Source: Paramacrobiotus metropolitanus
Taxonomy: Eukaryota > Tardigrada > Eutardigrada > Parachela > Macrobiotidae
Assembly: GCF_019649055.1 (NCBI RefSeq)
Contig: NW_026570302.1
Location: 576,990 to 640,989, forward strand
Reading direction: 5' to 3'
Length of the DNA stretch: 64,000 nucleotides
Positions 9,216 to 53,031 of the stretch are shown piece after piece (the stretch's first letter is position 1; each line of letters starts with the position of its first letter). The translations under genes were made by a program, and so were the position numbers. The notes under the pieces were generated by a model, which did not search any database, was not told where the DNA came from, and saw only the letters and a program-made list of their open reading frames with translations.

Positions 9216-9349
9216 TTGTCAACTGCGGCGGTATAAATGAAACAGCTGAAAACATTTGACCTGCTGTATACGAATTACGAGGTAACACTTAATCGAATTG
9301 CCACGCATTCATTCGGAATAAAAGTAAACGGGGAGTGGTGTAACTGGTA
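9216..9349. repeat. Left half of a host repeat split by the 11.6-kb transposon
   Basis: This sequence matches about 59,330-59,458 (shared stretches include AATGGTGTAACTGG-like and CATTCA-CGGAAT segments). In the 59-kb copy it continues directly into AGATACTTTTATTCGTATAA. Here that continuation is found only at 21,647, after the transposon. The pair therefore gives an approximate empty site for the insertion. Confidence 0.7.
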
Positions 9350-10040
9350 CGAGGAGGGGGTAAATACACGGGATAGACAGAAAAAACGGCAATAATAAGG
9401 GATAACCATTCACGTGTTGTGCAACACGGCCAGCCACCAAGGGAAGGCAGTTCAGTAACACAGTGCAGAACAGCCGTTGAGACTCCAGTCTCGAGCTGTT
9501 TCTCCGTAGACTTCTATGTTAAATTCAACCACCTTCGTCTTGCACATTTCAGAACTAATCCGCACAATTGATAGCTCAAAAGAACAAGAAAAAATTTACA
9601 AGATTTTTTATACCAAACAACTTGCCACTTACGAAAACTGAAGCAAGATTGAGCCATTTGAGTTTCGTAGACTAAGCATAGGAGTTGGATGGTTTGCTTC
9701 CACGGAGCTCCTATGCTTTGTCTATGGAAAACTTAATTGGCTCTAGCTTGTCTTATTTCTCATAGATCACGGTTTGCGTGGTATCGAAAATCTTGTTAAT
9801 TTTTTCTTGTTCTTTTGAGCCATTGATTGTGCGGTTTAGTCCTGAAATGTGCAAGATGCAGGTGTTTAAGTTTAACATGGAAGCGTACGGAGAAGGCAGC
9901 TCGGGTCTCAAAGCCTGAATTTTATGTAGTGTCGCTGGACTGCCTTCCCTTGGTGGCTGGCCGTGCTGCACAACACGTGAATGGTTATCCCTTGTTATTG
10001 CCGTTTTTTCTGTCTATCCCGTGTATTTACCCCCTCCTCG
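9350..10040. mobile_element. 691-bp fold-back element, TA target duplication
   Basis: The left arm (from CGAGGAGGGGGTAAATACAC) and the right arm (ending in its reverse complement) pair for about 280-300 bp each with scattered mismatches. The whole element can fold into one hairpin, including an inner stem around CTAAGCATAGGAG at 9,672 and CTCCTATGCTTTG at 9,707. TA flanks both ends (9,348-9,349 and 10,041-10,042), as in Tc1/mariner-type insertion. It has no coding capacity. The terminal CGAGGAGGG is shared with the MITE at 11,159-11,449. It sits seven bases outside the left end of the large transposon. Confidence 0.8.
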
Positions 10041-10049
10041 TACTTCAAA

Positions 10050-10092
10050 TATAGGGGGCAAAACTAAACGTGTTCCACGGTTCCCCTGTATT
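10050..10092. repeat. Left terminal inverted repeat of the 11.6-kb transposon
   Basis: These 43 bp match the reverse complement of 21,604-21,646 at 41 positions; the two differences are both A/G transitions. Homology probably continues inward by about 18 bp on the other side of a hairpin inserted in the right copy. Confidence 0.85.
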
Positions 10093-10695
10093 CCCTCGTG
10101 AAAATGAAAGTTACAAAAAAGATCTAGTTAAGAATTCGTGTACTATAGAAGTTACTACTAAACGTTGTAAAATATTTTGTGAGCAGCCGATCCTATGTCG
10201 AAGTTTAATGTAACTTCTCATCTTTGTTTACTTACACTGAATGCTACACAAAACTTCCACGACAGTTCAACATTTTCATTACCACAAATCGAGAACAGAC
10301 GCGGCAAATACTATTCGTAAGAAAATAAAAAAAACAATCAGAACGTCGCAATTATTTGCTAAAGTCTGTCCGAAATTCCTGACTTATTTAAGTAAGCCAG
10401 GAGAAAAACAACAAAGTTATTGATGCGAAACAAGAAATAATAGGGCAAAAATGATGATTGTAGGAAATGAGCATCGTCGAAGAAGGTTTGAACAAATCCA
10501 GGCAGAGGAAATGCGATCGGCTAATTCGAACCAGAAACACCACAGTCGCAGCGGTCACGACGGCATGCGTGTCAAAGCCAAAGGAGCATAAATCTGGAAA
10601 CGAAGAACGTAATATTCTCTAGCGAATTAAAAATTATCAAGTGAAGTTGGACAAGAAAAATCGGAAAAATAGAAAAATATGTTTTGCTTACTTTT

Positions 10696-12576
10696 CTACG
10701 TGTTGCACAAAATGACGAGCTGAGTACTCCCATCCTTCACAGTCTCGTATGTCACCAGCTCGATCAGGTCGTCCGTCGCCGGGATGTTCAGTGGCGGAAT
10801 TTCAAATCGTGTGTGCGGTGGAATCACTCGCCCCTCGTGGCCAGCGGTTGGAAGCCAGAGGACACTCCCGAGCGTTGCACTCAATTGCATGTACAACATC
10901 ACCTTTATAAAAAGGTCCAGACAAAGGAGCGAAGCAGCCTCGGCATTTCAGGTAAAACTTTTTCTGCAGAGAAAGTAGTTCCATCAGCATTAGAATTATT
11001 AGCCAGAACTGGAGTCGACTCCTTAATTCTTACCGCGTGAATCCTCCTCATATGCGTGGTAATATGCAGCCAGTTGATCTTCTCACCGCAGAGGGTACAC
11101 AAGACGTAATAGAACTCCCCCTTTGACCTGCATTAAAGCAGTCATTACAAACTGTATACGAGGAGGGAGTAAGCATCTTCGGTAGCGCGTTCGAATAGTC
11201 AAGACTCTTTGAACACTGTGCGTCAAGTGCGTGACAGCATGATTCATTGAACTGCCAACCGTGGAATGTTGCCCATCGGCGTGCACCTCACCGTCAACCG
11301 TGGATGGTTGCCCTGATTGACAGTGGCCAAGTTAAACGTGGATTGCCAGCCTTCCGCGGTTGACTGTTAAGCCAGATTTGCAGTCAAACGAGTGTTCAAG
11401 GTGTCTTGACTATTCGAACGCGCTACCGGAGATGCTTGTTCCCTCCACGTACTGATGGAGAAAAATCTACACAATTATAACTAACTACCTTTTACGAGCG
11501 TGGTTTAAATAAGAACGGACTTCCGATCTAATCAGACACATCACGCGGTGGCAGGTTGCAGTTTCTGTCCAATGCTTGTGCGGCAGGGACAGGTCGAGCC
11601 GACGGGTGGCGAGGCGACAGAGTCCCACAGAGTCCAGCATACTTTTCGCCGTCTGTTAAATGCGCAAATAAAATGACTGAGAATCGTACAAATTATGACT
11701 TGACCGAACAATTCCTCTACCTCCGGCGAGTTTGAAAGGAACGGTTTAATCCAGTCGTAAACATAACAGGACACCGACGCCTGGTCTTTAACGGATGGCG
11801 GCTTCTGTAGACTGCGGGGGAGGAAGACAGAAGATGCAAGTGTAGGTCGACCTTTGTGTTTTGCCAAGAACTGCGCCCACTCCTGGACCGCCTTTTCCAT
11901 ATCCATTGAGAAGCGAATGAATTTATGGAGCTCAGTGTCCATCAGCTAACAGTCAATGTCGGAGTTTCTGTAAACCCGGCAAATGCTTGATTAATGATGA
12001 TTTTGCAAAAAACTGAAGAAATATTCAGATCTTCATGTTGGACACAAATACTGCAAGTTATTTATGCTCTGGGGAATTCTGCAGTACCCGAAAATTGGGA
12101 CTTCTTTGCTCAGGTAAAACTTCCCCTTGTTTTCGTATCCATCAAAACTGTCTGGAAAAGCGCAGCGGAAAGTATTCAGCGGGAATACAATCGAACTCAT
12201 TCCCGGAAGAGGAATCTCTGGTGCCATGGACACCAACGATACGACTGTGTCTAAATTCTGCACCAGATCCGACATGGCGGTGAATCTCAACGCTGCATAA
12301 AGCCTCCATCCCTCGCTGCAAACCAGAAAGAATTACAGTTTGAAAATGGGTCGACCCAACATAGACTGTTAAAATATATAAGTATTACACGTTGCAATTC
12401 GGACAACGACAGACGATGTCATGATTCTCGTCGGCATTTGCTCCCGGTTGTTTCGCAATCCATTCGTCTGCGCATTTATGACACACTATTCCACTACAGC
12501 ACGGCGAAATTACAAGGCTATGGAACGGACAATCTACGCCAATCATACACTGAACGGAATTCTTCACATCCTGCAA
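10696..12576 (-). CDS. Cysteine-rich RING-like / zinc-finger protein of the transposon
   Basis: A multi-exon minus-strand gene is inferred from consecutive open exons. The first clear one (about 12,576-12,385) encodes a RING/U-box-like cysteine pattern: CMIGVDC, then SPCCSGIVCHKCADEWI, then CRCPNC. It follows a TTTGCAG acceptor. Further open blocks lie at about 12,330-12,033 (a W-x3-Y...MSDLV segment), 11,942-11,541, and 11,102-10,800. The last has a C2H2-type finger (CTLCGEKINWLHITTHMRRIH) read across its cysteines and histidines and a second Cys cluster (CRGCFAPL). Exon joints are not resolved. RING folds usually recruit ubiquitin E2 enzymes; whether this one does is inference. A MITE at 11,159-11,449 falls between exons. 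The exact start is unknown. Confidence 0.5.
11159..11449. mobile_element. 291-bp mariner-like MITE inside the transposon
   Basis: Inverted ends of about 57 bp (left CGAGGAGGGAGTAAGCATCT, right its near complement ending CCCTCCACG) are flanked by TA on each side (11,157-11,158 and 11,450-11,451). There are no open frames. The interior holds imperfect repeats around AACCGTGGATxGTTGCC. The terminal CGAGGAGGG links it to the fold-back element at 9,350-10,040. Confidence 0.8.
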
Positions 12577-12756
12577 ACAAAACAGAAAACCGTAAAAACA
12601 ACTTGTAAATGTCCATGGGATAAGTCGAGAATTAATTTTGAAAAATCTTATGATTTAAATTTTACATTTAAAATCCGTTATTCAAAAATAGCTAAACGTA
12701 CGTATACTGCGTCTAGTAATCTTCTTCGGTGATCTTCCATTTTAGGAGTCGACTCC

Positions 12757-15128
12757 ACGTAGCGCTAACCTGTAACGAGAACCTCCGTTAAACTCTTGAG
12801 ACGATTGCACACCGAAGCCGTCATGAAAAAAAAATCTATAACCTTCTCGAAGTGTAATCACTTAGACCACAATGCACGGTGCGCCCTGCGAGTCTGCAGC
12901 CAACGCTATACAGTACTTACTATAGATAATGCCGATCGAATGAATATGCCAAACGCCAAACCAGAAAACAGTTATGATTACGGAAAGTACCAAGATGCCG
13001 CTTCAATCAAGGACACACTGTGATACATTCATATGATGAGAGAGATCTCCCGGCTTCGATCCCGGCGCGGTTGTATTACCGTCCTGTGGCAGCTGCGGCT
13101 TGTGCGGCACGGACTGCTGATCGGGGAACAATAATATCCAAAGAATCTGCAATCAGGAAACAAACTGCAATAACCTTTCAGAATTCCTTAATGCTTACGA
13201 TCATGTTTCATTTAACACAATGCTCAAACTAAATAATCCCAAATCGGACGCCTACAAAGGCTATTATTTTCAGTAATGAAATTCTCTACTAAATGCGTAC
13301 TCCTGACACATGTCACATTTGAGAAGGAAATCAGAGAGAAACGGATTGTAAACGTAACTATTTACTAGTGATTCATTGTGAAGTTATGAAAAAACGGAAA
13401 AAATGAATGCAGTAATGCTAAATAGCTAACAATAAACAACTACCCATCAATAGCTAACCGGGCGTAAACTATCGCAGGAAAAAAACGCAGACTATACAAA
13501 AATGGAAAAGCGCGTATTTTCAATAAATTATTTTTTTTAAAAAACGCGTAATTTTTATAACCACCGGTAATAATTTACCATGAGCTGAGGAAATTGTATT
13601 GAAGGCTTAATTATCTGTACACAAGTAAAAGTAGTGGCACTTAAAATAAGTGTTTCAGTGAAGCTAGCCTTCATCGTAAGCGGAGCGTTAATAGTACTTT
13701 CGGTCCATCATTATGACGAAAAAAACGTAAGTGTTAAACACAGGAGACTTAAACTTTTTCACCGAAACCTTCCTCGAATAACGGTAACTAATTACCTGAT
13801 CGACAAATTGCGAAAAGCTCCAGCTAACTGCTAGCTGTCAATACGGCCAGGAACCAAGCGTACAAGCACACAGGAACCCGGATCATTGAGATCATAGAGA
13901 CGCTGATCTACAGCAAATTCTCTATTTGGCACAGCCTGCGCTCTACTTTGGCTACAGTGACTACACACCGCCACTGTCGCTTAACGGGTATTTGCAAGTT
14001 TACGATATCTTGCAGCCGTTTTCCTTTCTCTGGCTCTCCGGACTCAGAGTAGTACTTACTTAAAATCCTAGCTTATCGCAAAACTGAATGGTTCTTCAGT
14101 CTTACATTCTGCCGATAAGGACACACGTAACAACTACCCTATTTATTAAACTTAACCGCCAGCGAGCAAAGCACTTACACTACGGTAGGCAAACAGTGAC
14201 GCGCTACGCAACCAAGAAACATCCACTTGGGCCGCTGGGCGCTGGAATCCCTCTTGTTTCGGCTGTAAAAAGGCAATCGCGAAGGCAAGCGTCACTCTAC
14301 AATCAGATCACCCGACTCTTCACCGCAAACCACCACACTACCGCACTCAGCAAATTAAGGAGAACACGAATCAAATAGACACCGCAGTTCCTCGTCCATA
14401 CAAATAACAAATGGGAATATTCGTCACAAGGGGAATGATCAACAGTAGTGATTCTTTAGATCAGCCAACGCTACACATCACTCAATTCAGGAGAATTTCG
14501 AGTTCAACCGTTTATCAGGATGTTATCCAAATTAAGAGTTATTAGTAGCATTTACTCGTCGAAAAGTAAAAGTAAAAAACCCGAATATGTTGCGCAATTT
14601 TTGGTTCGTCAAGTTTTCTGTGCACAACGTTCTCACAGTTCACTGGAAAAACCTGTAAACGGAACCCAGCGGCTTATGCGGCGCGACTCTTTGGCATACC
14701 AAAACCGTCTGACCCGCCACCTACCTATTCTTGACTTGCATTCATTACTCAGTAACGCATAAGTACTCAAGCCTTGTGCTGCTAAAAGCTGCCGGTCTTT
14801 GTCTTGTTTGCAAAAATTGGTGACTGTATCTGCAGTATTTGGAATTTTGTCCCTACAAAGTCTTTTCGTTTTTTTGCTGGTATCTTTTCATCTTGGTGCT
14901 GCTGTTGTTGGGTCGAACCGTGCCAAGTAAGAAACGCCTGCGTTTTGCTGCGAATTTTTGTTCTACAGTAAAGTGTGGTTGTTTTTAGCATGTTGAGCGA
15001 CGATGAATCGTTATTTGAAGGATGCTTTATAATTGATCCCCGACCTTACAAGTCTCAAGAAGCAATCCTCGTAGCCCTGAAAACAGCTACCACAAGGGTT
15101 GTGAAGGAACCGAAAGAAGAGACGAAAA
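12757..15128. other. Palindrome-poor 2.4-kb block inside the transposon
   Basis: No convincing gene is seen. Short open frames (for example at 14,088-14,378 and 14,520-14,762) have no recognisable features. Base composition is more AT-rich than the flanks, with A/T runs at 13,515-13,560. The regular palindrome spacing stops here, with only a degraded GGGTCGAACC at 14,909. It may be a foreign insertion or a decayed part of the element. Confidence 0.5.
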
Positions 15129-15586
15129 AGGTCGACCTACCGTCTGAATAAAATCCGCGTGCCACCGCAACAAGCGATACACCAGAAGATACATGGCAAG
15201 CGCTTTCTGTTCGCGTAAGTGAGGCCCCGTACGATGCAGTGGTGTTATGCATGTTCTGTTTATACAAATTTCCTGTAACTGCACATAGGTTTTGCCCATA
15301 TATTAATAAAGTTAGCTATTTTCTATTTATTTTGTTACTTAATACAATACAATAAATTTCAGGTACCAAAACGTGAAACTTCTATCTATCAAGAGCCGAC
15401 CGGACCGAAAAAGAGCAATGATGAATTCGATGATTTTGATTATGAAAGTCTAGCGTTTGAAGACGAAATTGTCTTACCGAAAAGAAAAAACAAAAGTAAC
15501 GGATAAAATTACTTTTTAAAGTCCATCTTGTTGAAAGCGGTTCTAGGGTCGACCCGTTTTATTTACTCGAAGAGATGTGATTTTAA

Positions 15587-18184
15587 TTACATGATAAATC
15601 GCTTATTCGGTATACAGATATAGAATTCAGGATAATTATGCTTTCCATATATACACACAACAGGTCTAAACAGAATATCGATAGCCACTACATCGTACTG
15701 CTGACAATCCAATCGCAAGAATTTTCTTATAAAAGGCGGATTTGTACCATCTGGTAGTGTAATGGCACTAAACGGCTCAGTTCCGATATGCTCAACAGCA
15801 GCATAAATACTTCGCACAACCGATTCAAAAAATAACGAATTTTAGCAGCTTCAGTATTCTGCCCGTCACCGTTTGGAACCAGTAATTGCACCGCCGCTCT
15901 TTTCTGCGAGTACCGTAACACTCCAGTTCAACGCCAACGCTCCTGATTACTCGGTTTCGGAAGCTGCTTGGACAACCTCCTAGCGCTTCTTGCAAATGTC
16001 CTATCTTTTTTAGAATTTGCAATTCCAAATCCGCATCATACATGGGTCAACCCGCTAATTTATGTCATCACTAGTGCCAGTCGCTGACTGGTGACAGCGC
16101 GAAGCCTCTAAATGTTGATAATTTCGTACAATTTGTTAAGCCACGTCCGTACTGCCATGAACCGATTTCGTTAATCCACCCAAAAAGTCCGCAAAGTAAA
16201 AGGTCGACCATTGATATGCGGGCACCCAGTTTTCTAGGGCTGTAGAGAGATGAATAAGTTGGTGAACGTTAAACAACATCCGTCGCTCTCCGTACAATTG
16301 TTGGAATCGCTGGCAATAACGAAAAATAAGGCCCTGGGCGGTAGCAGCGTGGTCATTTAGTAACCCACCATGATCCAACATGAGATAGTGCATTGCTGTC
16401 ACTAAATCTAGCAGATTGTCACAAAGTACATGAGGCAACTGTCCATCCAATGCATAAAAAGCTCCATACATGAGAAAATTAAGATACTCAGAGGCGTGAT
16501 ACGACGAACATTCCGATATGGGGGGAATTGTGCGGCTAAATTGTGATGGAAAGATGATACGGGAAATTCGCAGGTCGACCTCGATCTGAAGATTAGCAGA
16601 CAAGATCTTCCTTTTTTTGTTGTTAATATTGGTGTAAACAGGAAGAAAACACATGGGGTCCTTCATCCAGTACTTGCACAGCTTTTTGGTGACTCCCAAA
16701 GCAACAGCGTGGAGAAAATCAGGAGGACAGTGCACATCGGGACTGAAAGAGGGGATTCGAAACAAACTGCTTGCACGAATAATTCCATGGCATTGTTTAT
16801 TGTGCTGCAAAGCAACCCGTGCACTGCGGATATACTGCTGACGATCTTTGTTTGCCGAAACACGATCGAAGGGGTACACGCGAACACCATCAACTACTTT
16901 TCCGGTGTGTAGGCACGCAGTGCATCCGTATTCTCCAGCAAAAGATCCATGACACAAGATGTCATTTCTCGCAATGGTATCAGCCACCCATAATGCCGGC
17001 TTTATCGCACTAATTCCGTCCGCTTGGGTCGACCCATTTGCAGTATCTGTAAGTTCCGCTGCAAGGAGTTTTAGGATAATATCCATGTTCGGTTTCGCCT
17101 TTCCCACCGCAAGGGCAAATAAAAACCGGTCACGGTACCGCTTACGCGTAGGAAGCTCGTTGATTATGTAACTAACAACTGTAATTGATCCGTTCAAACT
17201 ACCATTGAACCCAAACGTTTGTCCATCGTCCACATGAAATGTCAGCGATACATCTCTTCCGTGTATATTTAGTCTTTGATATCCCTTCCCCCAAAAAATG
17301 TCCAGATTTGTAAAGCTGTTTCTGAATTTAAATACATCGCCTCCTTTGTCCGATTTTACATAGCGTTCGACAGTGCTACCAGTCGGAAACGTGTAGAAAA
17401 TGCTTCCTCGCTTTCGGTTGTCTTTGATGGTTTTATGGGTCGACCCGCACTCTGCACTCGAACAGCATATTGGATCCCGAAAACTGTTTTCTTCTCCGAT
17501 ATAGTTTTGATGTTCGTAGCAGAAATGATGGATATTGGGATTCAGCAGATAAGGCGTAAGAAACGAATCGAGATAACACAGATTTTCAGGAAACTCCGAC
17601 GTATCCTTGGGTAGTTTCTTGAAAAAGCTCAACATTGCCCCTTGTTGAACGCGAGGCATTTTGTGTTTCCTGCAGATCCGCACGAACTGCATGACATTTC
17701 CCAGGGTGTCGACACCGGAATCACCTTCACCCTCTTCAAGTATATCCGAATCCGAGCTGGCATCTTTTTGAGGTGTTGAAACCACTCGCGAAACATACGC
17801 TCCGTCATCCCAAGTGCCGTCAGGAGACATACTCTTGAAATAAACATTTTACGCACTGAATTACTTTATTTGATAAATATTTCGGATGAAGCGAACAAAA
17901 CATGACTCCTTTTACTTTTAGACGGAACAATTAACATCACTGATAACATGTAAGTTTTTCAAACAATAGCACTCGTAGCATAATAAATTAAAAAATTTAA
18001 TGAGTCAGAATAAAAATACCAGGGAGTCGACTCCTTCCGGCTGCGATTCGCTATCACTTGACTCAACAATTCGAGGGTTGGCCACTTTTCCGCGATTTCT
18101 CCAGTGAGATGTTTTCGGCAATAGTCCATCTTCATACAAGTACGATCGATACCGTTTTCGGCGTTTACGCTGTTTCTCCGCCAT
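15587..18184 (-). CDS. Tnp2-like transposase (EnSpm/CACTA-type)
   Basis: Exon 1 (18,184-18,020) encodes a basic start (MAEKQRKRRKRYRSYL) and an acidic tail. It ends at a GTATTT donor in phase 0. The main exon (about 17,833-16,136) is 564 codons. Landmarks in it are a Cys cluster (C104, C122-C123, C128), a VSLTFHVDDG segment (residues 194-203), ELPTRKRYRD (225-234), YGCTACLHTG (301-310) followed by VYPFDR, and PPDFLHAVALG (369-379). This order matches the transposase_21/Tnp2 domain, where acidic residues at such positions are catalytic. Near the end NVHQLIHL and a KSVHG motif match the DUF4218-like region. Probable C-terminal exons (ADLELQILKKIGHLQEALGG at about 16,037-15,825 and 15,817-15,587) continue the family, but the joints are unresolved and may be frameshifted. 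Four or more GTCGAC palindromes fall in its coding sequence. Confidence 0.8.
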
Positions 18185-18644
18185 TGTTTAAATAATTTAA
18201 AGATGAAATTTGTAACTAAAAAATGAATAATTTAGTCAAAATATCTTCGCGTGAACTGTAGCAGCAAAAAGATAAAGACGCCGCCACTATTGTTGTTTCG
18301 CTTTATCAAGCCGCGCGCATAATAGCCGGCAGCGCTGTTTTTTTTCCGGTTGAACTGAACTGTGTTTGCTTGTGTGCGGCACCAGTTGTAGCAGATAGTC
18401 GCCGCGGGCCGATGGTAACCAAATCTGTATGTACGTATCGAAAGAGAAGGGGTCGACCCCGGTAAACGTAGATGATATGGGTACGCCCGATTCGTGCCGT
18501 CCGCATTTTTTCTTTCAGTCCCACATATGCATGTAGTCTTTGAGTTGTGCGCGGTGAACAGGTTTACGATCTCTGTTCTTCAAATTCTTCGTTTTGTTTA
18601 CTTAGTTTTCTTCGTTTCTTGGTTCTTTCCAGCAACAGCGTACT

Positions 18645-21109
18645 ATGTCTGCTCAAAAAGATAGACCGCCTACTCAAAAGGGTAGAACGCAGCGTGTGAA
18701 GAAAGTTTCCGGATCCTTGAACGAGGACGACATAGAAATGGATGATCTACAGCGTCAACAAAAAGAAATTCATGCCCGACATGACGCTCGAAAAGGTAGC
18801 ATCCAACTCGAAACTGTAAAGATTTCTGGGAGTCGACTCCTGATCAGTTTAGCCGTTTTCTAACAAACCTTATATGATTTCGCATATCTGGAATTAGAAA
18901 TGGTGAAAAACACCAAATCAGAATGTGTTAAAATTCTAACCTTATTTTATCGGCAGTTGGACGTTAACTAGTTATTACTGACATTAACAGCCGTATCGTT
19001 TGTCATCGATTTCACACTAAAAAAAACTTCAGATTTTGAGCTGCTTAAAGGTGCCTGAATGGAATCGACTCCAGTCTGTTTTTTTATTTTTTAACCGAGT
19101 TGTATAGACAAAGGTAACGCAAGTACTTGTTGATGGATACTTGTTCTACTACTAGTAACAATAAGGAATTTTTCAGATTATTGCGTTGTTCAATTTGCTG
19201 AGGACGGTCTTGTTCACATTATTTCTATGGAGCGGCAGTCCAGCAGCGCGGCATGGCGTTTGGAAGAAATGTCCACATATGAATCACTGCTGAAAGAGAG
19301 GGATATTATTAGCGTGAAGGCACCAAAGAACCAAGACGCTCTGCAACGCTTCTTCACGGCTCGGGTTGTTAAGGTCTCTTCAAGTGAAAAAGTTGCTGTT
19401 TCCGTTGCAAAGAATTTGGAATCGCGAAAGGCAAGACAGTGTTGCAAAACGTTCATTAATGCCAATTTATTTTTATTATAATATTTCGTCACTCTTAGAG
19501 TCGCTGTGTAGTTTGTCAGCAAAGCAATGTTTTGCAGAAAGGAAAGGGCGCGCGGACGCTGGAGTCGACTCCATCCAAAAAGAAAAGTCAAGAAGACCTG
19601 CTCAACGAAATCAGTTCAGAGTCTGAATCCCAAACTGATGCTAACAACACCCAGGATCTCAGTTGCAACTGGAGATTCGATCCCTATACCGGAAAGCCCG
19701 TTGGACAATGTAGTCCCGTCGCAGCCGGTAGCGGAAGCATGAAAGGAAAGCAACCAGGTACAGAGAAACTCGGTTGCCGTTACTTTTTGTTTTAAGTTAT
19801 TTAAAATATATATGTAAATTTAGAGTTGCCGGCACATAAGCGGAAAAGACAGGAATTTGAGGAGTCTGATGGTAAGTGGTTCCGATTGCTTTCTAGTACA
19901 GCAGGTCGACCTTTCCATGGTAAGCTCGAGCTGGCGTAAGAACGCTTGAATATTGCCACAAGTCAGCATTACATCTACTAGCCATTAACATGTACTGTAC
20001 GTTCTTGGCAGGAAGTGATGATGACAACTATACATGGTACAGGCTGTCTCCCCCTACGGGCAAACCAAAACTGCCGGCAATTGCGGCCCGAGAATTGTTT
20101 CCTCAAAAGATTATGCGTAGGTTACCCGTCAAAGACCCAAATAATCGCATTTGCATATTCCGGTATTGACATATCATTTAGGAGCCGACAAAGGTGATGA
20201 CGCCGATTGCCCTGCTTACGGCAAGGAGTCGACTCCACCGATGAAAGTTAACAGAACCGTTTGCATGTAAATATGGTGCTCTGATTACTTTCAGCATTCG
20301 CTTGTGCTATTTTTCAATGCATCTCTTCTGTTCGTAGATTTTTACGCTGAGCGACGTGGCGGCTCATCAAAAGTGGAGAAGCAAGCTAGCGGTACAAGTA
20401 CTTATTAAACAATTACCTAACCGTTACACCGGTAAAACCATATTTTTCTAGGCACAAAAAGTGCTGGGAATGCGAAACACAAAGGTGCGGCATATCCTAT
20501 TTCAGATTTTTTCATACAGATGCTGCACAGATAAGCATGGTCTTTTTTCAATAATTTTTAATAAATAACTTTTATTGGATGAGGTCGACCTTTTTCCGTG
20601 AAGTTTTTTTGATGTTTCACATAGATTCTATGATGGAAGAGCAAAGAGAATTGGCTGAGAGCTGTCGACAGCAGCTGAGACTGAAAACCAGAGAGAAGGT
20701 TGCGCTCTATTCTGGATCCGGAGTGTACTTGCCGAAGGGACAGTTCATCAGTTTCGAGGCCCGCTTAAAGCCAAAGAATGCCCTCATGGACGGTGTCAAC
20801 CATGCGGCGATGTTTTTCCGCAATACAGAAACGGCAACCCGGATCTTTCGGGGAGACCATTATGGCTTGAAGTCTGCGCTGGGGACAGATCTGATGGGCG
20901 AATTGATGCTTATTATTTAAAATTTCAAAAACCGCTTATGACATTATCACCATGGAAAATTTTTGATCGTAGCTTACATCAATGGATACCATCCAGCTAC
21001 GGCCGGGAAACAGTTGAAGATCCAGGAAGCAGAGCTGATCCGGGCTTTCAGCCATAAGCTGTACTACCTGCGTAATCATGGGAAGGGGTCGACTCCACGC
21101 AAAGGTTAA
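18645..21109 (+). CDS. BEN-domain protein of the transposon
   Basis: Exons fit in phase: 18,645-18,795; 19,177-19,430 (GC donor, GCAAGA); 19,538-19,757; 19,824-19,871; 20,012-20,116; about 20,182-20,250; short linker exons near 20,340-20,395 and 20,453-20,484; 20,624 to about 20,900; and about 20,970-21,109. The exon 2 opening DYCVVQFAEDGLVHIISMER resembles the small module that often precedes BEN domains. The middle is charged and low-complexity. The last two exons give a BEN-like fold: KVALYSGSGVYLPKGQF, a helical NHAAMFFRNTE region, then NGYHPATAGKQLKIQEAEL. BEN domains bind DNA, in known cases palindromes, so this protein is the prime candidate reader of the GTCGAC sites. The palindrome itself encodes ESTP twice and GSTP once here. 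The middle exon joints and the penultimate donor are tentative. Confidence 0.7.
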
Positions 21110-21485
21110 GCGTTTCCTACGAAATCAGTGTTAACTTTGGCGCGATGATGTTTTATTGGCAATTTTACCACTGGCGGAATACGTCGATTTAGCGTTTTGC
21201 ATTTATGACACCCACTAGCATATTTTTGATACCTTACGTGAATACCAAAAGTGCACGCGATGTTTTATTTTTATGCACTTTTTGGGTTCGTTTCCTGTAT
21301 CTTTAGTCTCCGAAATGTGTTGCACTGTTACCTACAAGTGTTACTGCGAAACTTACAATAAAACTTCTAAAAACGAGTTCCAGATTAAGTTGGTAATTGT
21401 AAGTTCTACACTAACTTTGTGGCACAAAAAGGTATAGCTGCTGTTCAAAAATTGTTACAAAAAAACTTATACATTTTCGCGGGGG

Positions 21486-21606
21486 ATTGCTACCGTCACC
21501 CGGCTGGTGTTTTACGTTGTGGCTAAACATGGCGCTTATGTACCGCGCCAGATTTAACCATATGTACTGCCGTAACGTCACACTCCAGGCGGGTGACGGC
21601 AGCAAT
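21486..21606. repeat. 121-bp hairpin inserted in the right terminal repeat
   Basis: The outer arms ATTGCTACCGTCACCCGGCT and its near complement lie 80 bp apart. The sequence interrupts the right terminal repeat. Outside the hairpin the repeat reads CAGGGGAACC..., and inside it resumes as CCCCCGCGAAAATG, matching CCCTCGTGAAAATG at the left end. It is therefore a secondary insertion of a small inverted-repeat element. Confidence 0.65.
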
Positions 21607-21646
21607 ACAGGGGAACCGTGGAATACGCTTAGTTTTGCCCCCTATA
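21604..21646. repeat. Right terminal inverted repeat of the 11.6-kb transposon
   Basis: Reverse complement of 10,050-10,092 with 41 of 43 positions matching. It ends CCCCCTATA at the host junction. Confidence 0.85.
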
Positions 21647-21720
21647 TAGATACTTTTATTCGTATAATGTGGGTTACCAATCTAACAATATGGTTGCTCG
21701 CAAACCGCCACGGTAACATG
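21647..21720. repeat. Right half of the split host repeat
   Basis: TAGATACTTTTATTCGTATA and the following ATGGTTGCTCGCA match 59,463-59,540 and continue the repeat begun at 9,216-9,349. Confidence 0.7.
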
Positions 21721-37860: not shown

Positions 37861-38325
37861 TAACGCGGTATGCGTAGTATGCCTGTACTTTGTACGTATG
37901 TCGTAGTTACGTACGGTTTACCTGTGCTTATCTAAAGCTTTTGATCGCTAATTCTATCAGCGATTCTGCTTGTCTTGATGAGTCTGAGTCTTGATGAGAG
38001 TGAGTTGAGTCTTGGATTTGGCAGAGTCTGTGCGCAGTGTGTGCAGATTTGATAGAGTTGGCTGGAGAGTCTGTATGCAGTGTGTGCAGTCTTCAGATTA
38101 TGATTAAAGGTTATGAGATCCTGAGTGACCTTCTTGTGGCGAAAGCATTAGTGTGAAGTGTGTACCTGCAGGAAGTCACATAAGAATCTGGATGACAACA
38201 TCATCCAGATATTTGGTTGTGAGCTAGGAGCAGATCACCGTTCAGAAGAGAGTCCCACTCTACCGACTGTGTGTGGTTGGTCATCTAGTACGGTAGTCGT
38301 GGTGCGACTGCCGTATAGCATGTCA
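37861..38325 (+). repeat. 5' LTR
   Basis: 465 bp, begins TAACGCGGTATGCG and ends AGCATGTCA. It contains a duplicated GTGCAGTGTGTGCAG-like segment and repeated GAGTCTTGATGAG. Confidence 0.9.
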
Positions 38326-38343
38326 TGGCGCCTTCCGGATTTT
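38326..38343 (+). promoter_or_regulatory. tRNA primer-binding site of the LTR element
   Basis: TGGCGCCTTCCGGATTTT lies immediately after the LTR. TGG pairs with a tRNA CCA end. The tRNA species is not assigned. Confidence 0.6.
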
Positions 38344-38828
38344 ACCAACCCCTGGGATTTCTGGACGGTGAGTGATTTTCGATTGTTTGGATTGTTGGTG
38401 TTTTGGTGGCCGAGTTGGTAGTACCACGTGGATCCTCAGAGAGTCCCGTGAGGATACGGTTCCTAAGTGGAACTGTACAGTCGGCCTTGGTTGACCCAAG
38501 TCTCCTTAGAAGGAACTTGGAGGACACGGTTCCTAAGTGAGAGCCAGGTGTCTGGTACGGTCCCAAAGTGAGAACCAGGTACCGGGAGTCTGCGGGAAGT
38601 AGATCTCCGAGTTTGGTTTGGCGTGGGTACGCTTGGTTTGGCGCAGTACAGTAGTGATCTGTACTCGCGGGTTTAGTTATTATAGACGGTACAGGGAGTC
38701 GTAGTGATCAGCCCCGTTATAGTCTGTAGTTAACTTCCGGGTAGACGCTGGCAGTGTCAGCGTTATCTGGATTTGACATCTTGATCTGTTGTCTGTGTGT
38801 CCAGGCATTAACTTCGCAGGCGCTGACT

Positions 38829-40358
38829 ATGGATCGGTCAGTGACAGGTGAATCGCAGTTGGCTGTGGATGGCTTATCTGCACGGGCTGCTGCAGGATGC
38901 AGCAGACGGACTGGTTTAGGGTTCAGTAGTGCTGATCCTGGCCAGGTTAAAGGCACTGTACCTGGTGGTACGGTGAATGGCGGAAGAGAAGTCGTAGATG
39001 AAACATCTATGATCAAGGAAAATTTTGATTTTACTGGTTTACGGGAACTGGAAAAACGGATCATGGAGATTGACCCTGTTTCCGTTCCAGTTGATCAAAT
39101 TGGTTTTGAAGATGATATCGAATTATTTGGTAATAATTTCGTAAATATTGGCAGTGAAATGGCCGATGCTGTGACAGACTTGCAGCATGGAGATGAGTTG
39201 TTTTCGAATTTACCAGATATTCGCCAGCAGAGAAGTGGTGAAGGGCATGGCGAGAGCAATGAACTGCTGGAAGTGTATCAGCAGCTTGTCCTTGATTATG
39301 AGAAGTTACAGGCTGATTACAGGATTTCACAGTCAGATTTGAATACTGTGAAAGCGGATCTGCATTCAGAGAGGGAACATGCTAAAAGGTTAGCACGAAA
39401 GATTGAGAGTTTTGAAACAGAACGTGATGACATCATGCGCCAGAAAGTTGATTTGGCGCATGAATGGAACAGGCAGAAGAAAGAAACAGCTGAAATGCAG
39501 AAGCGATTGAGTGAATGTTCTGCATTGCTGAAACTAAAGGTGAATAATTTTCTTTTGGAAAAGAAATTATTTGACGAAAACTTCGCAAAGTTTAATGCAG
39601 AAAGAAATCTGCATAAGCGACCAGATGTAGAAAAAGGAATTAGAGCGCAGTCAGAGAAGAGTTCTGTGATTGAGGTTGTACATGAACGAGATGTACAGGG
39701 TACAGTAGGTGCTGGTAGGCCTGTGCGTCCTCGAACTCTGTCCGCACAGAAATTGAATGGGCAGACTGTAATTGACTTTTTGGATTTGCGTACTCGGTAC
39801 CATAATCTTCAAGAAGGGTTTGGAATGAATCGTAGTTTGTCTCCTACGATTTCGAATGTTAGTTCAAACGATTTCTATAATATGCAGTTGAAGTTAGCTG
39901 CATTAGAAAAACGTATTGATGCGCAGGAAAAAGCGACGGCTGAAAGGAAAGCTGATGAGTCACTCAGCTTGAACAGTCTGGCACGTGTTTTGAAAGGTGC
40001 ATTCAGGGATGACGTAATGTATCCTGAAAAGTTTAATGGCAAGAAAGGTTCGATGACAGTAGAGAACTTTATCGAAAGTGTTGATAATTGTATCACGCAC
40101 AATGGATGGTATGATAGAGATGTGATCGACAAGTGTCTATCACGGTGTCTCACAGGTACAGCTTTGTGCTGGTACAGCGATAAGTACGAGGATAATAAGC
40201 ATAAGACTTGGAACCACTGGAAAGAAATGTTGGAGAAACATTTCTCAGATGAGAAAGATGTGATGGCGTTAAGGGAAAAAATTGGTAACAGGATGTTTAC
40301 CAGTAAGGATACCCCGAACACATACGTAGACTGGTTTACAACTATCTTTAGAAAGTAA
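38829..40358 (+). CDS. Gag polyprotein, N-terminal part
   Basis: The first ATG of the open frame is at 38,829 (the frame is open from 38,754 without ATG). The product has a long heptad-rich coiled coil around residues 140-260 and then a Ty3-type retrotransposon-gag core (KFNGKKGSMTVENFIESVDN, ALCWYSDKYED, NHWKEMLEKHFSDE). It ends at a TAA just where the gag core would continue. The next frame, in -1 relation, carries the continuation, so a single base change or programmed -1 frameshifting separates them. Confidence 0.85.
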   Translation: MDRSVTGESQLAVDGLSARAAAGCSRRTGLGFSSADPGQVKGTVPGGTVNGGREVVDETSMIKENFDFTGLRELEKRIMEIDPVSVPVDQIGFEDDIELFGNNFVNIGSEMADAVTDLQHGDELFSNLPDIRQQRSGEGHGESNELLEVYQQLVLDYEKLQADYRISQSDLNTVKADLHSEREHAKRLARKIESFETERDDIMRQKVDLAHEWNRQKKETAEMQKRLSECSALLKLKVNNFLLEKKLFDENFAKFNAERNLHKRPDVEKGIRAQSEKSSVIEVVHERDVQGTVGAGRPVRPRTLSAQKLNGQTVIDFLDLRTRYHNLQEGFGMNRSLSPTISNVSSNDFYNMQLKLAALEKRIDAQEKATAERKADESLSLNSLARVLKGAFRDDVMYPEKFNGKKGSMTVENFIESVDNCITHNGWYDRDVIDKCLSRCLTGTALCWYSDKYEDNKHKTWNHWKEMLEKHFSDEKDVMALREKIGNRMFTSKDTPNTYVDWFTTIFRK

Positions 40359-40360
40359 AG

Positions 40361-41083
40361 TTGGACGAATCAGAGCGCGTGTACTATCTGAAGCAAGGGC
40401 TGAAGAAGTGCAGATACGGCTGGTACACGTACATGGAAGAGAATGAAATTCAGGATACTGAAGAGTTCCTGAATGGGTTAAAACTGCAGTACAGGTTGGC
40501 GAAAGAAGATTCAGATGTAGAAGATCTGGATCAGCCAAGCGATAATACTGGTGAGTCCGGTAGAGAAGGCACTGGTGACGATGATGACCAGTCTTCAGCA
40601 GTGAGTGAGGATAAGTCGAGTTCGGATAATGGAAAAATTGTGATTAATTTTTCCAAGTGGTTTCTTCCAAATGGAAAACCGATTTGTTTTAAGTGCCATG
40701 GTTTGCACAAAAGTGTAGAATGCGCAAGTAAAGGGCCGCGTAAGCCTATGTTGGCTGAACCGCCGCCTGAGGTAGTGAAGCAGCACATGTTAAAGTTGAG
40801 AGTGAACCCCGAATGTAACAGCATGGCGGTAGCCCATGTTGGTCGGAAGTTTAAGCCTGGAAGGGATAAATCTGCTGGAAATAAGCAAACGACTTCTAAG
40901 GTTTATTTACCGAAGCGAACGGAAGTGTATTTGCGGAGCTGTAATGCATCCAAGGATGTGAAAGCTTGCATCAGTGGCAGTGTCAGTCAGCAGCAGTTTG
41001 ACACAGTGCATCACAGAGTGGCACCTATTTTGCAGTGGGGGTGCCAAAGCTGGAAAGTTTCCTCTGGCCGTAAATTATCATGA
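40361..41083 (+). CDS. Gag polyprotein, C-terminal part with zinc knuckle
   Basis: This frame continues the gag homology (DESERVYYLKQGLKKCRYG). It then has an acidic linker and a CCHC-like knuckle CFKCHGLHKSVEC with spacing C-x2-C-x3-H-x4-C, one residue shorter than the usual C-x2-C-x4-H-x4-C. There is no ATG at its start, which supports read-through or frameshift expression with the preceding frame, or simple damage. Confidence 0.8.
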   Translation: MDESERVYYLKQGLKKCRYGWYTYMEENEIQDTEEFLNGLKLQYRLAKEDSDVEDLDQPSDNTGESGREGTGDDDDQSSAVSEDKSSSDNGKIVINFSKWFLPNGKPICFKCHGLHKSVECASKGPRKPMLAEPPPEVVKQHMLKLRVNPECNSMAVAHVGRKFKPGRDKSAGNKQTTSKVYLPKRTEVYLRSCNASKDVKACISGSVSQQQFDTVHHRVAPILQWGCQSWKVSSGRKLS

Positions 41084-42077
41084 AAATAAGAATCCATGAT
41101 TTTAGGCTATTTAAACGAACGTTAATTTATGAGCTGAATATAATTCATAGTTACTGGTGAATTATGAATGCTAGTTGGGCAAGCACTTGATGCTTGTGCA
41201 GTTATACTTGACTGAATTTGCAGTTTAGATATTGGCAGTGTTAATATCTAACTTGCTTTTGCTTTGAAACTTTTGGTTTAAAACTATCAGCATTAATTGG
41301 TTTGCTGATTTTCGGATTAAATCAATTAGGTTAAATGAACCGGAAGTAAGTACTGTGTGTTGATGCGTTACTGCGTTGGTGGCAGTTACGTATACAGCAG
41401 TATTTGAAATGCTGTAGTGCAGCATCAGAAATTTTGAATTGCTGAATTACTTAGTTTTTCAGCAGATTAGTTTTCGGAACTGAGCAGTGGTGTAATCTGT
41501 TCACTTTGGCCATGAATCGCAACAGTAAGTGTTTTGCGATGGTTCGGTTGAGGCGTGTAATTGGTGGTTCCATCCTGAAAAGCGAGTACTCAGGATATCA
41601 GTAACTGGCTGTGTATGGCTGCCGTGTGACCATGAAGGAACCTGGCAGAGTGTGGTTCATCGCGTGTGTGCAAGTTTGCAGTGGGGGTGATCCTCATTGT
41701 ACAGTGGATTGATGTTATCCACTGATCGGACTTTTCCTTGGCTTGTGCTGGATGTCGAGCATAATGGATCCTCGAGCTCGGTGTGAGGGAGAGGATGGAT
41801 GAAACGAAGGATTTGGACATTTTGGACCTGGATAACTGATGGATCGTGGACAGATGCGTGTGGAATTGTTGATCATCGGAGGACGAGGACGGACTCAGCA
41901 GCGCTGGACCACCATTTGGACCTCCCGTACCCTCCGGATTCCACACGGACCACGATAACGATCCACCGGAAGTTGGTACTTTCCTGGATTTTGAGTTTGT
42001 TTTGGTTTTGTTCTTCGTAAATTGGCGGACCTTAATGAATGATTTCTTGTGGTTCTACGCGGACGTTAGAACGGTTT

Positions 42078-50793: not shown

Positions 50794-53031
50794 ATGCCGT
50801 ACAACGATTGCCGAACTAACTGCGTCGATATTTTGAGCGACAACGACCAGTTCCACCGTGGGCGCGTGGTGGATGTGGCCGACAGCGGACTGTTCATTGA
50901 CGTCTGTTCTAACCGCCGGCGTGAACTCATCCCCTTCAACCGGATTTTTCAGAATGTTAAGCCGTTGATGGAAAAAGACCTGGCCGAAGCGTACGCTCAC
51001 GCCCGACCCAACATGACCATCCCGGTGGACGTGCTGGTGCCCGAGACACCCGGCGGTCCATTGGCTTGGTTCCCCGCAGAAATCGTCAACATGATGCGTG
51101 GGTTACGGCATAAAACCTGCAGCACTGTCGTAGTCCAGTGGGTACAAAATGACGTACCGTGTACGGATCTGGTGCGATTGAACCGACTGCGTTGGAGACT
51201 GGCAAGCGATTGGTGGGCCACTATAAGCCGGAAAGGTCCAGTTTTGCGATCGGTTTCGGAGAATTGGCATGATGGTATTTGTGAGTTAGGCAAAATGAGC
51301 ACTTGGTTACAACCAGTTGGACCAGGCGCCTTCGAGAAGCGCAGTGTATCGTTGCCGATAGACTGCTGCCATGTGGATGTCGATAAGCTGATGCAGAACC
51401 TGAAGGGCAAAGCGTGTCGTAGCGCAACCGTAGAGAACGATGACCGCCCAGTTTATTTTGTGGACATAAAAGACGGTCGTGTCTCGTACCTTTGGCGACA
51501 TCTGCCTAAGGGAATTCTGCAGGAGATTATTTGTTTCATTGACTTCGCTCAGGTAAGTAACTCAAAATGCTGCTTACTGAGTGGCTGGGGAAATTTGCGG
51601 ATTAAAGTTTTTAAAAAAATTTTGGGGAAACATCGGTGCAGAAGGAAGACAAGTCGACGTTTTTCGCATTTGGGACATTGTCAGTGGTCGAAAAAATTTC
51701 CTGCGCTTAGACCTTTGATTGATAATCGCTTACTTTTGCAGTACCAGGCTGGTCGATGCCATGACGGACTAATCGCGCGTATCCGACAAATAAGTGGACT
51801 GCTCCCTCAACAAAGGGCTTCCCTTGTGGAGCGCGAGGAATCAGATAATCTACTTGTGCTGTCGACAGCCGTGCTGCTGGAAGTGTTTTCCCAATTGGAC
51901 ACCCACACACAGACCGGATTACATACGTAACGTTTGTGCTGCATGGAACTGCGTCTTGCAGTCCCCTGTGTTGTCGGTCTGCATCGTTGTTGCGAACTCT
52001 GGTGGAAATCGTAACATTTCGCTCGCCGATAAGTTGCACTGCTTTTTGTTGTCACCTGTTCTCAAGTTTCTCCGCAAACCGACACGATACATTGTAGTGG
52101 ACAATCGTAATACCTGGATCGATACCGGGGATTTTCTGGCGCTGGCGGAAATTATGCACTATGTTGGCCAGCGAACAGGGAGTCGATTGCGAACGGTTTA
52201 TTTGGTGGGACTCCGTTTGAAACTCCAGTTCGATAAGATCCTTGACTCTGAGGAGTATAAATATGAAAAATGTCAACTGCATCGCCACAGCGCGGACGAT
52301 AACCTTGGTTTATCCCTGCCCACCTATCGTCTGGTCGACTTCATCGCCGCTTGTGGTAGCATGTGGTGTGATACCATTTACCTGGTCAACTGGTGCCTCG
52401 ATTTAGCTAACGCTAAGTTAGACCGATGGGAAAGGATTCGACTGTCGGTTAAGGTAACGAAGGGCTCATTTTCAGTGAACAGTGATATGGGCAGCGTGAT
52501 ATGGACTGTACTGGAGAAAGGTGTGCCGCAGCCACGTCAGGAGCAACTTAACGTTTTGTCGTCATGGTTGGCGTCCGTCAGTGCTAATGAAAGCCATCGT
52601 TTTGAGAAACTGCTAGCCTGTAGGGTACGTTTGGTGCGCTGACTCTCAGCCCTGTTTTGAAGTAGATAACTCTTCCATTTTCGGTATTGCCTGTAGGGAA
52701 GTTGTAATTTTTATAGCAATGGTGCTCTTCGGGGTTTAGTTATTTTTTAGGTATAATTTAAAACAGGAACGTTTTGTAGGCTCTATGTGCAACGCAGACA
52801 GCTGACCCGCGCCGATCTTTGCATTACCGCGGCAAAGAGTGGTGTGTTGACGGCCTGAAAGACCTGCAAAGGGAAAAGGTGACTCCGGTGGCACTGCACT
52901 TCCTGATCCGACTGGCTGAATATTTTCTTCGACGATTTACGATGGATGACGACTCAAATTATGACGATTACGGCGGTTATGATCATGCGTTTGCGGATGA
53001 TGAGGGTGGAGGGTATCATGATTCAGATTAA
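50794..53031 (+). pseudogene. Agenet-F-box family copy 11, one frameshift
   Basis: Exons 50,794-51,552, 51,742-52,624 and 52,780-53,031 have good splice sites (donors GTAAGT and GTACGT, acceptors TTTGCAG and TTTGTAG). Exon 1 has the two Agenet-like modules (QFHRGRVVDVADSGLFIDV; IPVDVLVPETPGGPLAWFPA, VVVQWVQND, RLNRLRWRL). The F-box in exon 2 (STAVLLEVFSQLDTHTQTGL) is broken by a four-base insertion at about 51,928, making an in-frame TAA. Exon 2 is then 883 bases instead of a multiple of three. Reading resumes immediately (RNVCAAWNCVLQ) and stays open to the end. Exon 3 has ALCATQTADPR and an acidic tail (DDDSNYDDYGGYDHAF). A single recent lesion; otherwise it would be a full-length gene of about 630 residues. 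Confidence 0.8.

Follow-up and report, generated by a model that had tools for sequence, protein, structure and literature searches.

The stretch of Paramacrobiotus metropolitanus DNA analyzed here (64,000 nucleotides of contig NW_026570302.1, hereafter the window) raises the question of why a DNA transposon within it, F1, carries palindromes with a GTCGAC core along most of its body. A first-pass annotation had described a lattice of regular spacing that extends through the whole element, rather than clustering near its ends, and is confined to one transposon. The lattice itself was supported, whereas the confinement was wrong, since piggyBac and hAT-like elements also carry GTCGAC-core palindromes. 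The array is thus common to at least three unrelated kinds of DNA transposon, namely F1 with its 3-bp target-site duplications (TSDs), piggyBac and hAT-like elements. Quite possibly, and we put it forward tentatively, the lattice is a site array for a trans-acting homodimeric factor, postulated from the sequence pattern, which would coat these elements and probably license or protect their expression. The analysis covers one genome, and fetching loci by motif biases absolute frequencies; the tests of symmetry, conservation and spacing were set up so as either to escape this bias or to state it.

Within the window, the first-pass counts were right: six class A palindromes (GGAGTCGACTCC), ten of class B (RGGTCGACCY), one GGTGTCGACACC and four one-off copies (14909, 16043, 19061 and 21085). 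Two sites had been overlooked, GCTGTCGACAGC at position 20661 and AAGGTCGACCAT, which is weaker, at 16200. As had been noted, class A and B sites are absent from the remaining 52 kb, according to the list of window GTCGACs. An isolated perfect palindrome, GCTGTCGACAGC, lies at 51858-51869, outside any array. F1 holds 18 exact palindromes of at least 10 bp with a GTCGAC core and 9 with all other cores, with about 12 of any kind expected.

All 48 fetched places with GGAGTCGACTCC (of 50 listed and 74 in the genome) lie inside mapped transposon repeats; for L017 and L019 the mapping used only partial similarity, and for L013 the coding region together with our own bounds. F2 is a 3.35-kb piggyBac (L014, L016, L020), and L013 and L053 are also piggyBacs; the DDE_Tnp_1_7 family (PF13843) was matched in L014 (E 3.6e-46), L013 (E 8.8e-65) and L053 (E 6.3e-59). 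The 1.4-kb F3 repeats were assigned to piggyBac by terminal similarity to L053 only. TTAA stands at both ends of every complete copy read (F2 3/3, F3 4/4). F4 (L049+L061, L054, L056, L059, L060) is hAT-like, with 8-bp TSDs in both two-ended copies (GTTTGCGC in L059, CATTAATC in C54), a weak match to the hAT dimerisation domain PF05699 (E 3.6e-4, 20.7 bits against a cut-off of 21.4) and a match to DUF659 (E 3.8e-5) under its cut-off; its intact palindromes are 14-18 bp long. Inside array elements GTCGAC occurs 22.7 times per 10 kb, a value inflated by the bait-chosen loci, compared with 2.25 outside.

The lattice is common to unrelated elements, but apparently not to all. Neither TGGAGTCGACTCC nor TGGGTCGACCC lies within 5 kb of any of 27 Tc1/mariner (DDE_3) places or 53 hAT-dimer places, a check of these two motifs in which F4 was not among the 53. 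Four of five fetched Tc1 stretches lack GTCGAC, and the fifth has one palindrome. Separately, an isolated 14-bp palindrome, GGATGTCGACATCC, was seen near a Tc1/mariner-type transposase domain (L062:61-74). That only some families carry the lattice would suit a legacy of another host, in which the families met a common factor before arriving by horizontal transfer, so that the lattice may no longer work. We regard this as distinctly improbable, because constraint is still seen between copies of 87-95% identity and the data come from this genome alone.

Words were counted in the 169.8-Mb host genome with the reversed word as control. There are 74 occurrences of GGAGTCGACTCC against 4 reversed, 91 of TGGGTCGACCC against 41, and 139 of GAGGTCGACCTC against 13, the last count being probably too high because of a further repeated coding family, which holds four of five sampled GAGGTCGACCTC loci. 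That family (L025-L028, L031, L032, L037-L039) carries one AGGTCGACCT-type palindrome in each of two regions about 11-13 kb apart (three pairs); by eye it resembles a retroelement with an integrase, but a Pfam scan of one frame (E 0.01) returned nothing to confirm the name. The family accounts for 9 of 20 sampled AGGTCGACCT loci, which led us to reject RGGTCGACCY as a genome-wide marker. The genome count proposed in the first-pass annotation bore out enrichment for GGAGTCGACTCC but not for RGGTCGACCY (559 vs. 913 for a control without CpG). The annotation had also named two outcomes that would speak against its view, equal density elsewhere in the genome and absence from other copies. Neither was found: among the matches listed for two motifs, 99 of 123 sites have another within 1.5 kb, and both other long F1 copies examined, on contigs C105 and C46, carry the lattice. 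The TGGGTCGACCC singletons L045, L046 and L047 were taken as background. A similar run of sites appears on contig C214 in the genome listings.

The letters flanking the core differ among sites, and the arm classes (GGA, YGG, NAG, GGT and others) are mostly alike on both sides. To measure this, homologous sites were merged into 66 groups, and 33 of these were dropped for containing a bait-type site from outside the window. In the 33 left, the arms matched at ±1 in 28, at ±2 in 24 and at ±3 in 21, against shuffled-half means of 17.6, 12.2 and 10.0; at ±4 to ±6 matching was at chance level. Among 52 control GTCGACs outside arrays, 12 matched at ±1, and 5 matched at both ±1 and ±2 (3.3 expected). 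This control set was obtained by removing bait sites and the unmasked piggyBac-like repeat L050 and adding L025-L044 and L059-L066. Chance as the origin of the lattice was rejected on the genome counts, the palindrome excess in F1 and the symmetry relative to these controls. Arms that match beyond the expectation from half-site letters could also arise without function, through quasi-palindrome correction or short conversion. Such a mutational origin appears extremely unlikely, given that other palindrome cores show no excess in F1, that no arm base matches at 35 of the 43 non-bait GTCGACs of L025-L044, and that even spacing is found in five arrays and recurs between piggyBacs.

A constant center between variable, self-complementary arms could instead be read in element transcripts, as RNA or single-strand hairpins with a G-C-closed stem and a TCGA loop acting in export, stability or dimerisation via the self-complementary loop. 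The paired arm change at an orthologous F4 site (TGCGGGTCGACCCGCA in L054, TGCTGGTCGACCAGCA in L049 and L056) and F4 stems of up to 7 pairs (arms of 6 plus the closing pair) agree with this proposal. We nevertheless consider it improbable. G-U tolerance should favor the mRNA strand, whereas the ±3 T..G pairs of GGGTCGACCC sites fell about three right and about three wrong, in a check by hand of very few cases with gene strands presumed by eye. A loop need not be palindromic, yet the core is GTCGAC, which was the sole core searched across families, and the purine-rich arms on the 5' side suggest base readout.

The sites are better conserved than their surroundings in two of three comparisons between the long F1 copies (W, window; A, C105; B, C46; 87-95% identity, n=3). 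For window-defined 12-mers, 6 of 216 bases differ between A and B (2.8%), against 255 of 2068 in the flanks (12.3%, P=2.7e-6). For B-defined 12-mers, A and W differ at 5 of 228 bases (2.2%), against 312 of 2156 (14.5%, P=2e-9). The four one-off copies of the first-pass annotation are intact in both C105 and C46. Since the core lies in frames 0 and 2 of the F1 transposase-like open reading frame (ORF), and in all three frames of piggyBac coding DNA, protein constraint alone does not explain the conservation. These results bear on whether the palindromes are a host silencing tag, recognised by a host protein that recruits repression and persisting through recent common origin. Concentration of the sites in mobile DNA would be expected of such a tag, but so would its decay; conservation above the flanks and the recurrence of changed sites near old places suggest a benefit to the element, and a silencing tag is thus very unlikely.

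Neighboring sites in the arrays are mostly some 250-500 bp apart, and in five arrays the gaps are more regular than under random placement. In the right block of F1 (14909-21096), chosen to exclude the 2.5-kb gap and a site of copy A at 10761, the coefficient of variation (CV) is 0.25, and none of 100,000 random placements was as even. The values are 0.24 for L013 (P=8e-4), 0.17 for L053 including one weak site (P=4e-4), 0.24 for F4 including one mutated site (P=0.007) and 0.49 for F2 (P=0.017); otherwise, a GTCGAC needed at least two symmetric flanks to be counted. In the comparison with random placement that the first-pass annotation had suggested, evenness held for the right block but not for all 22 F1 sites (P=0.64), because the block 12757-14908 is free of sites. 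One wide spacing (about 535 bp, now 832 bp) is due to the insertion of about 290 bp at 11160-11450. The gaps shrink steadily 5' to 3' in L013 (2803-5053, from 438 to 236 bp) and L053 (12-1822, from 403 to 254 bp). Repeated internal protein-binding motifs are described in other transposons, such as the TNPA repeats in the account cited (PMC2613891), and the palindromes might likewise be accessory sites that aid transpososome assembly or end synapsis. This also seems very improbable for sites that three unrelated transposon kinds have in common and that are spread through the body, leaving 0.4 and 0.9 kb at the ends of F1 free.

Site turnover was followed in the piggyBac coding DNA of L013, L053, L014 and L016, with alignment columns taken by hand. 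The piggyBacs compared have about 50-58% nucleotide identity, and L013 and L014 have 44% amino acid identity. The mean distance from an L013 site to the nearest L014 site is 39 columns (129 under uniform random placement, P=5e-4; 85 under rotated placement), and that to L053 sites is 10 columns. Common descent accounts for part of this recurrence, and the changed classes and registers at shared places are evidence for turnover. At one shared place, GRP codons are written as CGAGGTCGACCTC, CGGGGTCGACCCC and AAGGGTCGACCCA. At another, RSTS/GAGGTCGACCTC in L013 (same core place in L053) is one base out of register with GVDS/GGAGTCGACTCC in L014, despite a gap-free protein alignment. The KAGVD place has GGTGTCGACACC in L053, GGAGTCGACTCC in L016 and GGAGTCGACTCG in L014; L013 has lost this site and carries another one 47 columns further along, within L013-specific sequence. 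At the C-terminal place, L013 and L014 have different palindromes and L053 a degenerate one. A broader proposal, which we consider rather unlikely, is a convergent address code on unrelated transposons, in which selection would act on spacing and arm matching rather than on fixed letters, lattices would be rebuilt near lost positions across transposase reading frames, and one trans-acting factor or a fold-back would read symmetry and spacing, deciding between element life and silencing.

Considering the above results, we propose a plausible model for the coating factor. Each palindrome would be bound by a DNA-binding protein that is symmetric, probably a homodimer, and acts in trans on all families; this protein may come from the host or from a single transposon family. 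With many dimers spread evenly along its length, an element would be coated, its chromatin would stay open or silencing would be evaded, and transposase could be expressed. Loss of sites would lead to silencing of an element, and the lattice would therefore be maintained by selection on the element, in coding DNA as well. The arm classes might reflect paralogous homodimers, or a binder requiring matched half-sites.

Several observations weigh against this model, in addition to the count of RGGTCGACCY given above. TAGGTCGACCTA is not enriched in the genome (7 vs. 48 reversed), with all seven places in F4 copies or L052, and neither is GGTGTCGACACC (8 vs. 8), five of whose eight places belong to L053 or to F1 copies, with C214 counted from site listings alone. 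For A-defined sites, W and B differ at 10 of 263 bases (3.8%) and at 160 of 2463 in the flanks (6.5%), which is not significant (P=0.11), and in none of the three comparisons were CpG bases in sites better conserved than CpG outside. Outside arrays, ±2 matches are also in excess (22/52 vs. 14.0 expected, P=0.012; 23/42 before the control set was changed). Even with 2 mismatches allowed, the 2.15-kb site-free block of F1 yields no match in any of the three long copies. CpG depletion was not seen (observed/expected 1.08 in the window and 1.13 in the element), which makes it unlikely that the lattice counters DNA methylation, as the nearest precedent does. Strict matching of variable arms is unexpected from one binder with tolerant half-sites. 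Finally, the binder and its chromatin function are inferred from the pattern only.

The proposed binder need not be encoded by the element. Self-recognition by an element-encoded BEN protein, as the first-pass annotation had suggested, found no support: the candidate, a last-exon ORF, has no BEN match in Pfam (to E 0.1) or PDB sequences (to E 10), and its single-sequence model is of low confidence (pLDDT 48). PF10523 had no match anywhere in the genome, and a control likewise matched nowhere. In the piggyBac and hAT-like elements, only transposase pieces and opposite-strand frames were recognised, by eye, and a binder there would therefore have to act in trans. The 564-amino-acid ORF of F1 presumably resembles tnp2-like proteins; it gave no significant Pfam family and no protein-database homologue at E 0.001. 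Relatives of the F1 transposase or of a piggyBac were not found on viral contigs.

The ends of F1 were fixed by shared boundaries (Table 1). The TSDs of the eight copies read are ATT, ATA, TAT, TTT, CCC, ATA, CGC and ACA, a count that leaves out L017 (rearranged) and L058. The copies on C105 and C46 start with CCCTCGTGAAAAT and end with CATTTTCACGGGGG, each with flanking 3-bp duplications, and shorter relatives of about 2 kb have the same ends, a 3-bp duplication and some of the sites. CACTA/EnSpm terminal inverted repeats (TIRs) begin with CACTA or CACTG. F1 agrees with this group in its 3-bp TSD, in 8/8 copies, but not in its TIR, which begins with CCCTCGTG. The positions 10049-21647 previously given as the ends of the element belong to an outer repeat, the insertion target of F1 (TIR ATATAGGGGGCAAAAC, arms 10049-10092 and 21604-21647). 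A further inverted repeat lies within 21486-21606. A palindromic MITE-like repeat (9347-10043, arms of 115 and 166 nt) adjoins the outer repeat, and its end, TTACCCCCTCCTCGTA, appears again in inverted form, 94% alike, where the 11160-11450 insertion has its edge (11157-11172). Parts of the site-free block are only about 79% identical between the window and C105; a recent insertion was rejected as its origin, as it has no convincing terminal repeats and is present in all three copies. Elsewhere in the window, strand composition along the 4 kb of 38001-42000 is strongly biased to G over C (skew about +0.26), a region for which no tandem repeat was reported.

Table 1. Positions of F1, its parts and its GTCGAC-core sites in the window.
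Feature	Position	Strand	Basis or copies
F1, DNA transposon carrying the lattice	10093..21485	.	shared boundaries and 3-bp TSDs, 8/8 copies read
F1 TIR: CCCTCGTGAAAATG / CATTTTCGCGGGGG			
Left TSD, ATT	10090..10092	.	
Right TSD, ATT	21486..21488	.	
Nested MITE-like insertion, about 290 bp (inverted repeat)	11160..11450	.	alignment gap: absent from C105 and C46 copies
Transposase-like ORF, 564 aa	16136..17830	-	resemblance by eye; no significant Pfam family
Last-exon ORF, probably the BEN protein of the first-pass annotation	20579..20920	+	
Class A palindrome GGAGTCGACTCC	11011..11022	.	intact in 3/3 long copies
AGGTCGACCT palindrome	11843..11854	.	3/3 copies
TGGGTCGACCCA palindrome	12347..12358	.	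3/3 copies
Class A palindrome	12745..12756	.	10-bp palindrome 3/3 copies; full 12-mer 2/3
Degenerate GGGTCGAACC of GGGTCGACCC site	14909..14920	.	intact in C105, C46
AGGTCGACCT palindrome	15128..15139	.	3/3 copies
GGGTCGACCC palindrome	15545..15556	.	window and C105 copies
Degenerate GGGTCAACCC	16043..16054	.	intact in C105, C46
AAGGTCGACCAT, weak, one symmetric flank	16200..16211	.	3/3 copies
AGGTCGACCT palindrome in transposase ORF, frame 0	16571..16582	.	3/3 copies
TGGGTCGACCCA palindrome in transposase ORF, frame 2	17025..17036	.	3/3 copies
GGGTCGACCC palindrome in transposase ORF, frame 2	17436..17447	.	3/3 copies
GGTGTCGACACC palindrome in transposase ORF, frame 0	17705..17716	.	3/3 copies
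Class A palindrome	18023..18034	.	3/3 copies
GGGGTCGACCCC palindrome	18449..18460	.	3/3 copies
Class A palindrome	18829..18840	.	3/3 copies
Degenerate class A GGAATCGACTCC	19061..19072	.	intact in C105, C46
Class A palindrome	19561..19572	.	3/3 copies
AGGTCGACCT palindrome	19902..19913	.	window and C105 copies
Class A palindrome	20225..20236	.	3/3 copies
AGGTCGACCT palindrome	20581..20592	.	3/3 copies
GCTGTCGACAGC palindrome, possibly fortuitous	20661..20672	.	window; CTGTCGACAG in C105
Degenerate class A GGGGTCGACTCC	21085..21096	.	GGAGTCGACTCC in C105, C46

Because these superfamilies share no transposase genes, a common, conserved, element-wide signature probably means dependence on the same factor. 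If true, this would give a handle on how DNA transposons evade or tolerate silencing in a genome where CpG is not depleted. It would also be a rare instance in which unrelated parasites of one host have converged on a sequence design. The lattice could also serve as a test system, with sites removable by synonymous changes and the binder open to capture with a 12-mer. In the titles and abstract openings searched, no palindromic lattice shared by transposon superfamilies was found.

Among known systems, the nearest in principle is, by analogy and as far as the cited account goes, VANDAL/VANC of Arabidopsis, in which many copies of a short motif in one transposon likewise mark the whole element (PMC5735166). 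There the motif, YAGTATTAY, has one orientation, is mainly non-coding, spread by tandem repeats and is family-specific; the binder is encoded by the element and counteracts DNA methylation, motif variants evolve and motif density matters (PMC5735166). The sites described here are, in contrast, dispersed palindromes in coding and non-coding DNA, mostly evenly spaced, found across unrelated superfamilies and without CpG depletion. CACTA (En/Spm) elements with TNPA-like proteins resemble F1 in their 3-bp target duplication and in the repeated short motifs of a large element, but the TNPA repeats in the account cited are subterminal (PMC2613891), whereas the ends of F1 are free of sites, most of its body is covered and its TIR reads CCCTCG, not CACTA. 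The periodic An/Tn clusters (PATC) of Caenorhabditis elegans are likewise a distributed DNA signature, one that can prevent germline silencing; they are A/T clusters in non-coding DNA, whereas the signature here consists of GTCGAC palindromes in transposons (PMC7725773).

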